From a virus, in the IMG/VR virus record IMGVR_UViG_3300049432_000028, positions 1 through 25,251 of that record: a DNA stretch of 25,251 bases. The stretch is one strand, 5' to 3'. Of the stretch, positions 14,823 through 24,615 are shown piece by piece. The notes beneath the pieces were generated by a model. That model was not told where the DNA came from and made no database searches. It saw nothing but the letters and a program-made list of their open reading frames with translations. How positions within the stretch are numbered: the first letter of the stretch is position 1; each line of letters starts with the position of its first letter. The position numbers and the translations under genes are program-made.

Positions 14823-15958
14823 TGGGCTTCAGTTCATCGAAAACCAAGACGACGCAGAACGTCAACCAGAACGAGACCGGCACCACCATGCCCGTCACGC
14901 CCGATTGGCTGACCGGCGCCGCACAGGACTACGTGGGCAGGATCGGCGCGTTCGGCGACATGGACCCGAATAGCTTTGTTGCCGGGGCAGCGCCGTTGCA
15001 GCAACAGGCGTGGGGCAACGCCGACAGGCTGGACGACTGGCAGCCCCTTGCTCAAGGCGCGGCTGGGATGGCGGCAGGAGCCGGGATGGCCAAACCGAAC
15101 CTTGCCGGGGCTCCTGCGGGCACTGGCGGCGGATTTCAAGGACAGGCTCCGCAGCCGGGCGGCAAGTTCAGCGCGGACGGGGCCTATGCGCCGGACAGGG
15201 GCAGCCCGTTCCCGACGCCTGCGGGCGGCTACTCGCCCGCGCCCCAAATGCCGGGCTACGCCATGCCGCGGACAGGGCAGCCGATCGGCGGCGGCAACCC
15301 GGCCCTCACGGGGGCGAGCCAGGCTGCCGCCTATTCCAACCCCTACGACCAGCAAGTGATCGGCTCCACGCTGAATAGCTTCGACATGGACGCAGGCCAG
15401 CGCCGGGCTCAGCTTGAGGCGGCGGGCGCCAGAAACCGCGCGTTCGGCGGCTCCCGGTTCGGCTTGGCGGAAGGCCAGTTCGATGCCGACACGGCAATGA
15501 ACCGGGGCGCGCTTGAGGGCGGGTTGCGGCAGCAGGGCTTCAACACCGCCAACCAGCTCGGAATGCAGGACGCCAGCGCCGGCAACACCATGAACATGTT
15601 CAACGCGGGGCAACAGGACAACGCGCTCAATCGCCAGCTGTCCGCCGCCGGGCTCATGGGCGGGCTGGCGGACAGTTACGGTTCGAATACCCGCGCCGAT
15701 CTCGGCACCATGTCCACGCTCGGTGATCAACAGCGGCAGATCGAGCAGGGCTATGCGATGGCGCCGCTCGCGCAACTGGAGGCGATGGGGCAGCTTTCCG
15801 GCATGACGCCGTACGATATTCTCGTCGGCCGCAACGTCACCGGCAATACGACCGGCACGACAACCAGCACGACGACGGGGCGCCCGAGCCTGTTCAGCCA
15901 GTTGCTCCAGATGGGCCAGGCCGGGGCCAACGCCTATGCGAGCGGAATGGGGGGCTGA
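14822..15958 (+). CDS. Internal virion or ejection-type protein
   Basis: This 378-residue protein is rich in G, A, Q and M. It has a polar N-terminus (SSSKTKTTQNVNQNETG), a proline/glycine-rich low-complexity middle, and a helical C-terminal half with YSNPYDQQVIGSTLNSFDMD followed by GARNRAFGGSRFGLAEGQF. The last part matches a conserved pattern seen in podovirus proteins thought to lie inside the head or tail and to be released with DNA. The near-absence of lysine in the second half and the many asparagines are typical of these. There is no enzymatic motif. The next gene begins one base after its stop (TGATATG). Confidence 0.65.
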   Translation: MGFSSSKTKTTQNVNQNETGTTMPVTPDWLTGAAQDYVGRIGAFGDMDPNSFVAGAAPLQQQAWGNADRLDDWQPLAQGAAGMAAGAGMAKPNLAGAPAGTGGGFQGQAPQPGGKFSADGAYAPDRGSPFPTPAGGYSPAPQMPGYAMPRTGQPIGGGNPALTGASQAAAYSNPYDQQVIGSTLNSFDMDAGQRRAQLEAAGARNRAFGGSRFGLAEGQFDADTAMNRGALEGGLRQQGFNTANQLGMQDASAGNTMNMFNAGQQDNALNRQLSAAGLMGGLADSYGSNTRADLGTMSTLGDQQRQIEQGYAMAPLAQLEAMGQLSGMTPYDILVGRNVTGNTTGTTTSTTTGRPSLFSQLLQMGQAGANAYASGMGG

Positions 15959-15959
15959 T

Positions 15960-17006
15960 ATGGGGATGTTCAGCGGCGCGGGCGGGCAGGGGTTCGACTG
16001 GGGCAGGGCCGCGCTCAGCTTCCTGGGTGCCGGACCGCAGCTTCAGCAAAACGACGCCCGCCGCGCACAGGCGGCCGCCCTGGCGTTGCGCCAGCAAGAG
16101 GCCGAGCGCGAACAGGGTCTGCGCTCCAGCTTGTTCAACAATCTCGTCAAGCAGGGCATGGATCCAGGGCAGGCCGAGCTTGCCATGTCGAACCCGGAAG
16201 CGTTCGGGACCGAGTTCAACACCCGCTTTCGCACCCGCGAGCAAGGCGCCGCGGGCGGGAGCACCTTCACGCCCAATCTGAACGGCCAGGGCGGCATGAC
16301 GCGCATGGCCCCGTCTCGCCATGAATTCCAGGGCAGCGTGTTCGATGTCGGCGGCGTGGACGCGAACGGGCATGGCGGCGCGGTCACACCTCGCCACCAA
16401 GGCGTCCAAGTCGTCCCGCTTCAGCCCGGCGGCGAGCTTGCGGGCGTCAACAGCTTCACCGGGCGCGAAGTGCCGCTAGCAGGCTCTGCACTGCAACAAG
16501 AGGCACCCCCAGGCTCTGTCATTGGGCAGATGACAACCCTTCCGGGCGGGCCTCCACTGTCCGCGCCGCGCGTCGGACAAGGCCGAGCGTCGCGCTACGG
16601 CGGCCCTGATCCTCTCAGCATTCTCCGAGCCATCCCCGGCGTCACCTTCAACAGCGGTCGTCGCACGCCGGAAGGCAACGCTGCCGTGGGGGGCGTGGAG
16701 GGATCGAACCACCTGAGGGGCGACAGCATTGACATTGGCGTCGGGACCAGCGGCCTGTCTCTTGCCCAGCTCGCGGAACGCGCCAGGCGTCTCTACGGGC
16801 AATCCGCGCGGGTTACGCCGGAGCCTCATAGAAACCACGTCCATGTCGATTTTCCCGGCTATGGAGCGGTCCCCTACCATGGCGAGCGCGGCGCGCGGGG
16901 CGCGCCACAGCGTCAGCCTGTCCGCGTCAACTCGCCCGAGCAGGCGCGCAGTTTGCCCCCCGGCACAGTCTTTGTCACGCCTGACGGGCGTAGGAAGGTC
17001 CGCTAA
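15960..17006 (+). CDS. Virion-associated M15 peptidase
   Basis: The 348-residue protein has a helical N-terminal part (1-95) like internal virion proteins, a variable middle, and a C-terminal peptidase M15-type domain (about 225-302). The zinc-site pattern is visible: H251 and D258 in SNHLRGDSIDI and H293/H295 in HRNHVHVDF, after the family's SGRRTPEGNAAVGG entry motif. M15 enzymes cut D-Ala-containing peptides or related bonds in peptidoglycan. In this position the enzyme most likely opens the wall during DNA ejection. It is the only cell-wall hydrolase I can see in the window. The stop overlaps the next start (TAATG). Confidence 0.8.
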   Translation: MGMFSGAGGQGFDWGRAALSFLGAGPQLQQNDARRAQAAALALRQQEAEREQGLRSSLFNNLVKQGMDPGQAELAMSNPEAFGTEFNTRFRTREQGAAGGSTFTPNLNGQGGMTRMAPSRHEFQGSVFDVGGVDANGHGGAVTPRHQGVQVVPLQPGGELAGVNSFTGREVPLAGSALQQEAPPGSVIGQMTTLPGGPPLSAPRVGQGRASRYGGPDPLSILRAIPGVTFNSGRRTPEGNAAVGGVEGSNHLRGDSIDIGVGTSGLSLAQLAERARRLYGQSARVTPEPHRNHVHVDFPGYGAVPYHGERGARGAPQRQPVRVNSPEQARSLPPGTVFVTPDGRRKVR

Positions 17007-21878: not shown

Positions 21879-21967
21879 TCGATCCCGCGCTGTCCAACCT
21901 CGCGCTATGCTCGGCCTTCTTCCTGTTGCTGTGGGGAGTGGGGAGGAGGTTGGTGGGGAGGCCCTAG
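21875..21967 (+). CDS. Small single-helix membrane peptide, 30 aa
   Basis: The GTG overlaps the upstream stop (GTGA at 21875-21878). The peptide has one hydrophobic helix (LSNLALCSAFFLLLWGVG) and a basic end (RRLVGRP). Its TAG overlaps the stop of the leftward RecA-like gene in a CTAG. Two independent overlaps at its ends make a real gene likely despite its size. It could be a lysis inhibitor or accessory. Confidence 0.5.
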   Translation: MIDPALSNLALCSAFFLLLWGVGRRLVGRP

Positions 21968-22434
21968 AAGGGCGGGTCGCCTTGAGTCGGGCAGCCTGCT
22001 TCCCGCCAGCGCTTATCGGCTTCAGCCATGCTCGCCTTTTGCGCCAGCGAGTGCTCGTCCAGCTCATACTCGGCGCACGTCAGCATCGTCTGCCAGATGA
22101 ACTCGATGCGCTCGCGCTCGGTCTCTAGGTCCTGATACTGGTCCTTTGGCTGCCAGCCTTCGACGTCGTTCAGCATGTCTTCGGTTGGCGTGGCCATGGC
22201 TCGGAACATGTCCTGCGCGCGCTGGATGAAGGTGCGCCAGTAACCGTCTACATAGCGATCAACCTCGTCGGCGCTGAGTTCCCGTTCCTCGATTAGTAGC
22301 CGCTGGCGGCACAGTTCGCGCGCGACCGTCTCCGTCATCGTCTCGGGTCTTGGGGCGCCATGGGCCGCAGCGCCCTTGCCGAATGCGCGGTTGATTTGCT
22401 CCAGCGCGGCGTCGAGCGCGGCCTGTTTTTCCAT
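21964..22434 (-). CDS. Small protein with RecA-like N-terminus
   Basis: The 156-residue product starts MEKQAALDAALEQINRAFGK, strikingly like the N-terminal helix of bacterial RecA (typically xKxKALDAALxQIxxAFGKG), which packs on the neighbouring subunit in the RecA filament. After the AFGKG block the sequence leaves RecA completely: there is no Walker A, and the rest is helical and acidic (ARELCRQRLLIEERELSADE, WRTFIQRAQDMFRAM, ending AGCPTQGDPPF). The leader carries AGGAG before the ATG. One inference is a RecA-binding phage protein that mimics a filament end; another is coincidental helix similarity. It is the first-transcribed of no larger unit, standing alone after a 170-base gap. Confidence 0.6.
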   Translation of the reverse strand: MEKQAALDAALEQINRAFGKGAAAHGAPRPETMTETVARELCRQRLLIEERELSADEVDRYVDGYWRTFIQRAQDMFRAMATPTEDMLNDVEGWQPKDQYQDLETERERIEFIWQTMLTCAEYELDEHSLAQKASMAEADKRWREAGCPTQGDPPF

Positions 22435-22478
22435 CGTTCGATCCTACTCCTAAACGCTTGCGCTTGCCACAGAAAACA

Positions 22479-23619: not shown

Positions 23620-23796
23620 TCATAAGCAGATTGCAGCTGACTTGCGGTCAGATAATATCTGCCGCGATAGTTGACACTCACCCGCAGGGCCGAGACCACT
23701 TGGGCTCGGGCTTTGCTGAGTGGCGACGGTTCGCGCAGCGAAATCGCCCGACCTCTCTTCGCCCATCCTTTGTGGTGGATCATAGGTGAGGGTCAT
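23620..23796 (-). CDS. Doubtful 58-aa ORF coupled to the J-domain gene
   Basis: ATG at 23796 overlaps the stop of the J-domain gene (ATGA). The 58-residue frame has no recognisable feature (MTLTYDPPQRMGEERSGDF at the start). A competing frame, in line with the zinc-finger gene, covers the same DNA and carries the repeat-encoded VSALR motif. I cannot decide which, if either, is translated; the region 23598-23792 may also be a leader. Confidence 0.25.
   Translation of the reverse strand: MTLTYDPPQRMGEERSGDFAARTVATQQSPSPSGLGPAGECQLSRQILSDRKSAAICL
23662..23696 (-). repeat. 35-base repeat, copy B
   Basis: Partner of 22479-22513; 25 of 35 positions match. It lies 65 bases upstream of the zinc-finger miniprotein start. 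Read leftward it encodes VSALRVSVNYRG against VSALRASIDYRG in copy A; most differences in shared residues are synonymous (GCG/GCC, CTT/CTG, CGC/CGG, GGT/GGC), which favours a coding origin over a protein-binding site. Confidence 0.5.
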
Positions 23797-24371
23797 GCGG
23801 ACAGCCTCAGCGCTTGAGCGCGCGCGGCATTGAGTCGAGCCATGGCCGCTTCGCTCCCGCCAGTGTCGGGATGGGCAGCGCGGGCCTTCTCGCGATAGGC
23901 GCGCGTAACCTCATCGGAAGATGCACCCTGGCGCACGCCGAGTACCTGCCACCATTGCTCGGGCGCGGGCGCGGGCAGGGCCTCGAAGCCGGTGAAGGCG
24001 CGCTCCAGCATATCTGACGCGCCCCAACGCTCGATCCCCCGCAGCGCTTCGGCGGTCTTGCTGATCGCGCGCATATTGTCGTGGACCTCGCCATACTGAT
24101 CGCAGGCAAATACGACATCGCGCCCCTTCCGCTTGAAGTAGACGGCCACGCCAGGGTCGTAGATCGCGCGCCTGACGAGGCTTGGCGAGCCGTCCTTGTT
24201 GAGCGGCTGATTGGTCGAGACGATGATCTCCTTGCCCCCGAGACGCCGAATTTCCTCCAGCATCTCCCGGCGGGCCTGTTGCGGCGGCACCTTGAACGGC
24301 CCGTTTTTGCGGAGATACTCGCGCGTGCGCTTCCAGCCTGCCGGCCACTGGAGAGGGTATGCTTCAACCAT
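23793..24371 (-). CDS. Phage J-domain protein
   Basis: The 192-residue product has a C-terminal J domain (about 139-188): QWWQVLGVRQGASSDEVTRA followed by AYREKARAAHPDTGG, with the HPD signature at 167-169 that stimulates the ATPase of DnaK-type chaperones. The N-terminal part (AYPLQWPAGWKRT, then IIVSTNQPLNKDG and VAVYFKRKG) resembles a module found with J domains in alphaproteobacterial phages. I infer that it recruits host DnaK to a phage target, perhaps for replication or assembly. ATG at 24371 overlaps the upstream stop by eight bases; an in-frame extension upstream is low complexity and rejected. Confidence 0.82.
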   Translation of the reverse strand: MVEAYPLQWPAGWKRTREYLRKNGPFKVPPQQARREMLEEIRRLGGKEIIVSTNQPLNKDGSPSLVRRAIYDPGVAVYFKRKGRDVVFACDQYGEVHDNMRAISKTAEALRGIERWGASDMLERAFTGFEALPAPAPEQWWQVLGVRQGASSDEVTRAYREKARAAHPDTGGSEAAMARLNAARAQALRLSA

Positions 24372-24615
24372 TGCCCGCCTCCGTCTTGAGGACGAAGTGC
24401 TTCTTGAGGAAGGCGAGCTGCCGCGTGTCCCACTCTCCCCAAGCATACTCGGCGGACATAGCGTAGTCAGACGGGTGAATGGTCTCGGGGTCGTCGCCTT
24501 CGCTCACCATCCGCCGATACATCACCTCATAGGGATCATCGAACGGCGGGCGCTCGACCTTCCAGCCATGGCCCTCCAGGAGAGCCTGCGCGTCTTCCAG
24601 CTTGTTCGTCGCCAT
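24364..24615 (-). CDS. Phage accessory protein, 83 aa
   Basis: The first gene of the leftward cluster. ATG at 24615 follows GGAGGTGA, an almost perfect ribosome site five bases away; an upstream in-frame extension to 24741 lacks such a site and reads into the junction. The product contains LEDAQALLEGHGWKVERPPFD, then YEVMYRRMVSEGDDPE and YAWGEWDTRQLAFLKKHF, with several aromatic residues and no cysteine. I recognise no family. It is coupled to the J-domain gene and probably co-transcribed from the junction gap. Confidence 0.65.
   Translation of the reverse strand: MATNKLEDAQALLEGHGWKVERPPFDDPYEVMYRRMVSEGDDPETIHPSDYAMSAEYAWGEWDTRQLAFLKKHFVLKTEAGNG

Follow-up and report, generated by a model that had tools for sequence, protein, structure and literature searches.

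A RecA-like N-terminal segment on a small viral protein and its recurrence on unrelated phage proteins

The virus record IMGVR_UViG_3300049432_000028 of IMG/VR, whose 25,251 bases were analysed as a whole and are referred to here as the window, encodes a small protein (P0001) that begins with a near copy of the N-terminal oligomerization helix of RecA and its FGKG turn, followed by an unrelated body. We propose, at close to even confidence and from sequence comparison, that P0001 is a fusion between this helix and a small helical protein of a sphingomonad family, which would dock on RecA, cap it or bring its own body there, and so lower or redirect RecA activity. The simplest reading would be a docking or capping tag. 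At least two other phage proteins, unrelated to P0001, carry a RecA piece of this kind, which suggests that phages may use it as a tag to grip or block RecA.

The plus strand of the window carries a structural cassette (terminase-like protein, portal, major head protein and virion structural protein) and the minus strand a group of small genes at one end, among which is the P0001 gene. Its coordinates had been given correctly by the first-pass annotation and the gene is read on the minus strand, from 22434 to 21964 (Table 1). Its GC content by codon position (0.68/0.43/0.78) resembles that of the neighbouring genes. For the SOS box, the window has 14 matches with one mismatch where 18 would be expected, and none near the gene is conspicuous; the promoter scan around the gene gave nothing exceeding chance. 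No full-length homologue of P0001 was found in 50,697 phage records, IMG/VR and GTDB contigs, and none came up in the 42 virus records to which related genes for capsid, portal and DnaJ-like proteins led; residues 96-156 gave no significant match in Pfam, PHROG, NCBIfam and PADLOC. The single-sequence AlphaFold model of P0001 (pLDDT 50) is too poor to place the helix as free or buried. Elsewhere in the window, a 356-residue protein with a C-terminal Peptidase_M15_3 or endolysin-like domain (15936-17006, plus strand) adjoins the virion genes, and a phage protein ends with a DnaJ domain (23793-24446, minus strand; PF00226, E=1e-7; phrog_9210) and has relatives in many viral contigs and alphaproteobacterial genomes. 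This DnaJ-like gene occurs in two orders and is therefore not host-specific, so that a host assignment based on it was dropped; from the RecA match and the body family, the host probably belongs to the sphingomonad bacteria.

Table 1. Positions of P0001, of its parts and of the other phage proteins bearing a RecA-type N-terminal segment
Feature	Record	Coordinates	Strand	Description or basis
P0001, 156 aa, RecA-like N-terminus	window	21964..22434	minus	ORF with ribosome-binding site, coding-like GC by codon position
RecA N-terminal-helix segment, residues 1-21 (MEKQAALDAALEQINRAFGKG)	window	22372..22434	minus	recA identity and RecA-N profile
Linker, residues 22-31, at the position of the RecA beta polymerization motif, AAAHG instead	window	22342..22371	minus	
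Body domain, residues 32-95, distant member of a small Sphingomonadales family	window	22150..22341	minus	profile without P0001
C-terminal extension, residues 96-156, without recognised similarity	window	21967..22149	minus	
AGGA Shine-Dalgarno-like element, 7 nt upstream of the first ATG of P0001	window	22442..22445	minus	read from the sequence
L317	IMG/VR contig 3300042503_001098	789-1379		DUF7004, RecA-N as first 19 residues
L318	IMG/VR contig 3300044624_002454	2869-3459		DUF7004, RecA-N as first 19 residues
L319	IMG/VR contig 3300031857_000987	3001-3579		DUF7004, RecA-N as first 19 residues
gp3 (L306)	Microbacterium phage vB_MoxS-R1	1255-1827		regulator, RecA-type segment after predicted HTH

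The segment is identical at 17 of 21 residues to the RecA of Allosphingosinicella, Sphingomonas deserti, S. parva and Marinicauda. At the DNA level, 53 of its 63 nucleotides agree with the closest recA, and the best local match (48 of 54 nucleotides) has a Smith-Waterman score of 78, with no unrelated stretch of the window scoring above 39. When the whole of P0001 was compared with 17 alphaproteobacterial genomes, nearly all of sphingomonads, the best match was its N-terminal segment, in a frame fitting RecA. We found that P0001 starts, like the N-terminal domain of RecA (residues 1-33 in E. coli), with the helix KQ.ALDAAL.QI.RAFGKG in its sphingomonad version, and that the likeness ends at residue 21-23 in shuffle comparisons of both DNA and protein, any similarity past residue 23 being no better than in shuffles. 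The NCBIfam RecA model (TIGR02012) covers P0001 at model positions 1-23 only (E=0.084). Unlike RecA, P0001 has no beta polymerization motif (S-V/I-M-R/K-L-G), ATPase core, Walker A or C-terminal domain, an unrelated body coming after the segment, and no PF00154 match was obtained anywhere in the record. The first-pass annotation had read residues 2-21 as the first helix and turn of RecA with no RecA core behind them, and both parts of this reading are confirmed, the former by the residue identity and by a profile score of 35.1 bits.

The body of P0001 belongs to a different kind of protein. Its C-terminal 129 residues, used as query, found two small relatives in 399 Sphingomonadaceae genomes (without Pfam or PHROG match for the two), and a search with a three-row alignment found the body family in 59 of the 399 Sphingomonadales genomes. 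With a profile of 19 members from which P0001 was left out, P0001 scores 22.2 bits (E=1.4e-5), and the best of 2000 shuffles reaches E=0.32; the alignment that had led to the family, however, contained P0001. The family pattern (xERIARVLxGQRLS...WR.....A.AVLRTLREPDxAM) is matched by P0001 weakly, yet above all shuffles. The sequence comparison thus describes P0001 as a weak but significant family member with an N-terminal extension. In the 19 members that were read, the protein starts only a few residues ahead of the domain and the RecA segment is absent, whereas P0001 does not start at the domain and has about 31 residues in front of it, with the RecA piece within; for this reason the RecA piece looks like a graft. 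The family itself, as sampled in L287-L305 from Sphingomonadales genomes, is widespread and its proteins are small (about 80-100 aa, MDIS...ERIARVLAGQRLS...LREPDxAMAxAGD..VW..M).

Such a segment is not confined to P0001. A second pattern, written without the GKG turn and searched in viral contigs, was found in 12 of them: seven encode RecA, one has an internal match in L309 that was rejected as chance level (15 bits), one holds a copy of a Microbacterium regulator and three encode DUF7004 proteins (L317-L319). The latter begin with MDRQEALDAALAQIERNFG or MDRQTALDTALAQIERNFG (tag consensus MDRQ[ET]ALD[AT]ALAQIERNFG) and continue as DUF7004 (PF22539, E=2e-46, residues 43-197); seven other DUF7004 homologues from viral contigs (L320-L326) lack the RecA segment and begin with the domain. 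Comparing L317 with L319, the 19 tag codons comprise 7 identical, 10 synonymous and 2 non-synonymous ones, and the last 150 codons 48, 48 and 54 respectively. The protein sequence of the tag is therefore held more tightly than that of the body (10 synonymous to 2 non-synonymous in the former, 48 to 54 in the latter), and this codon comparison supports selection of the tag at the protein level for DUF7004. In the structure model of the tagged protein the DUF7004 core is confident, and the tag appears as a helix joined to it by a linker, both of them at low confidence; a fold search with this model gave no match.

The regulator is gp3 of vB_MoxS-R1, an inducible Microbacterium prophage (PMC9030533). 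Its residues around 80-110 (KREKDLDEALAQIDRQFGAGGTMTLA) include the RecA-like stretch REKDLDEALAQIDRQFGAGGTMTL, which shows 68% identity over 25 residues with the N-terminus of RecA of the actinobacterial type (E=0.004 when used as query on the phage collection). The result is independent of this query because the segment is also found by the Pfam RecA model (E=0.009) and by a comparison of full-length gp3 with the PDB, in which 10 of the 11 hits are RecA, among them an alignment to residues 5-35 of the chain family 1ubc (the RecA of M. smegmatis, a name that PMC4957752 gives to 1ube and 1ubf). The Pfam HTH match of gp3 lies below cut-off. The adjacent gene encodes an IrrE/ImmA-type peptidase and is followed by an integrase. 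A second virus record (L314) contains the same protein, in identical copies only. Part of the beta polymerization motif is retained in gp3, in contrast to P0001.

Scored with a RecA-N profile, the proposed RecA-N-tagged set comprises P0001 at 35.1 bits, DUF7004 proteins at 33.6 and 30.5 bits and gp3 at 32.3 bits. All three kinds thus have a segment of at least 30 bits and no RecA core, and the records of P0001, of the DUF7004 subgroup and of gp3 contain no RecA family match over cut-off. The three bodies have different family assignments or none, and for P0001 and gp3 the RecA type that the segment resembles is that of the presumed host clade. What began as an isolated curiosity is now a small pattern that recurs, which strengthens the interpretation. 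It is possible, although we lean somewhat against so broad a statement, that phages have repeatedly taken the RecA N-terminal oligomerization helix, in a version fitting the host clade, and attached it as a portable tag for docking on RecA to small proteins and regulators that are otherwise unrelated; such proteins would be natural counterparts of the designed RecA N-terminal peptide inhibitor, and the tag might allow a prophage regulator to sense RecA directly. As the RecA-N segment is searchable by profile, the tagged set can be enlarged.

A short, alanine-rich segment picked by a reader seeking oddities among many sequences could be an amphipathic helix that resembles RecA by accident. We consider this very improbable in view of the specificity of the match. 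The value of 35.1 bits was obtained with a profile of 59 RecA N-termini from which the query was excluded, and the best unrelated ORF reaches 23.3 bits (out of 3.67 million residues, some of them from hits that had been pre-selected in about 300 genomes). A related profile that included the query segment (A2) gave one match each in 141 of 145 Sphingomonadaceae genomes at E<=0.003, all with frame lengths fitting RecA, and no non-RecA match at this threshold in these genomes, which share the alanine-rich composition. The check whether P0001 matches RecA N-termini no better than random alanine-rich helices do was thus run, and P0001 passed it (35.1 against at most 23.3 bits, with A2 finding RecA alone). 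Moreover, the exact pattern AL..QI..R..FGKG matched 44 stretches in 2.9 million viral contigs, and the motif is regarded as RecA-specific because all the ORFs recovered from them (43/43) are RecA, full-length or truncated by a contig end; two further unrelated phage cases at 30-34 bits also speak against accident. It is somewhat less improbable, while still quite unlikely, that the segment binds a partner other than RecA or pairs P0001 only with itself, its RecA resemblance having been selected for other reasons. The case for RecA is a case from sequence, and weaker look-alike helices (12-23 bits) do exist in chromosomal proteins and antisense frames; against this, they are more than 10 bits weaker, and the match in P0001 takes in the FGKG turn, which is characteristic of RecA. 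Extra matches were seen in 43 genomes of the order of Marinicauda and rejected: the second-tier ones that were read score 23 bits or less and seem to be helices and antisense shadow frames, together with one recA cut by a contig end. The apparently non-coding shadow frames with QIDRAFGQGAA (L327-L332, from genomes of this order; 18-23 bits) recur in many genomes and are the strongest chance look-alikes of RecA-N. Tails of cyanophage proteins with YGKGAIM were also discarded (12-18 bits, not significant); these are lysine-rich proteins, such as Syn33 gp186 (L342, 817-1290) and S-TIM4 ORF_186 (L343, 484-1473), with ALDKVKAEIEKQYGKGAIM-like stretches that recall the RecA helix and a GKG-A-I-M turn in about 22 cyanophage records.

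The first-pass annotation had also suggested that the segment was captured from a host recA, which is partly supported: sphingomonad recAs match the segment most closely and do so in the correct frame and position, whereas the DNA identity compared with the expectation from phage codon usage gives p values of 0.16 (best recA) and 0.05 (mean), in a test biased by the fact that its recA set was itself chosen by a DNA pattern. Capture from a host recA is plausible, and DNA does not separate it from convergence at the protein level because the identity is not clearly above phage codon usage. If captured, the segment could be a recent recombination relic, formed when a host recA contributed its 5' end, with the start codon and about 21 codons, to a phage gene by an in-frame join; the segment would then serve only as a start and neutral extension, without RecA-directed function. 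That the P0001 segment is known from one record only leaves room for such a functionless join, and the 84-89% DNA identity to recA in the right frame, the abrupt end of homology and the missing beta motif agree with it. In addition, recA 5' fragments do move, since one of them adjoins a tyrosine recombinase on a plasmid: the Acidiphilium multivorum plasmid NZ_CP041717.1 carries, directly upstream of the recombinase gene, an unannotated recA 5' fragment of 96 aa (L307, 1462-1752) cut at Walker A (GPESSG), possibly a recA-targeting element or a relic in its own right. We nevertheless regard a relic as rather unlikely for P0001, given that two more unrelated phage proteins bear such segments, that the change in the DUF7004 tag is mostly synonymous and that the DNA upstream of the P0001 segment has no recA similarity comparable to that of the segment. 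An att-like copy, by which an element inserting into the host recA would restore its 5' end, could account for the exact 18-nt run common to the segment and a recA (L188), and yet appears extremely improbable: the window genes that were scanned include no recognised integrase, an att role requires identity of DNA and not of protein, and the DUF7004 tag diverges in DNA and not in protein.

We therefore return to the docking or capping tag. RecA subunits join through their N-terminal domain, which has a helix and a beta motif (S-V/I-M-R/K-L-G), the latter pairing with the neighbouring core (PMC4957752). The helix of P0001 would dock on RecA at the surface where the helix of the next subunit normally sits; P0001 might bind free RecA or the end of a RecA filament, where it would cap RecA or deliver its own body domain, and RecA activity (repair and SOS) would be lowered or perhaps redirected during infection. 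Counted against this are the missing beta motif that pairs with the neighbouring core, the lack of an SOS box signal near the gene and the fact that no homologue of P0001 bearing the segment was found. The tag is preferred as the best explanation because a synthetic 29-mer peptide based on the same segment of E. coli RecA, the N-terminal domain, is reported to inhibit filament assembly (Cline et al. 2007, as summarised in the review PMC11442139). The principle would be the same, that is, an isolated RecA intermonomer segment acting in trans; as the review presents it, the 29-mer was designed and tested, whereas P0001 is natural, fused to a domain and known from sequence. RecA is likewise the presumed target of the S. 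aureus phage protein Gp16 (PMC12817073) and of P1 Ref, F PsiB, RecX and DinI, none of which is described, in the accounts consulted, as copying the RecA N-terminus; P0001 has no family match to any of them in Pfam, PHROG, NCBIfam and PADLOC. The open papers searched contained no natural copy of the polymerization element on the RecA side. With respect to ImmR/ImmA and IrrE modules, gp3 is similar in that a regulator gene lies beside a Peptidase_M78 gene and differs in having a RecA-type segment after its predicted HTH; P0001 is not of this kind.

The BRC repeats of BRCA2 mimic the oligomerization motif of Rad51 and follow the same principle, the partner carrying a copy of the recombinase's own polymerization element, although they are eukaryotic, based on a short FxxA motif, arranged as repeats and not homologous to P0001. 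Copying such an element is established for BRCA2 and Rad51 and has been done artificially for RecA. If the tag binds RecA, it would give phages a compact route to control recombination and SOS, and would provide a hypothesis linking the Microbacterium prophage regulator, encoded beside an ImmA-type peptidase, to RecA.
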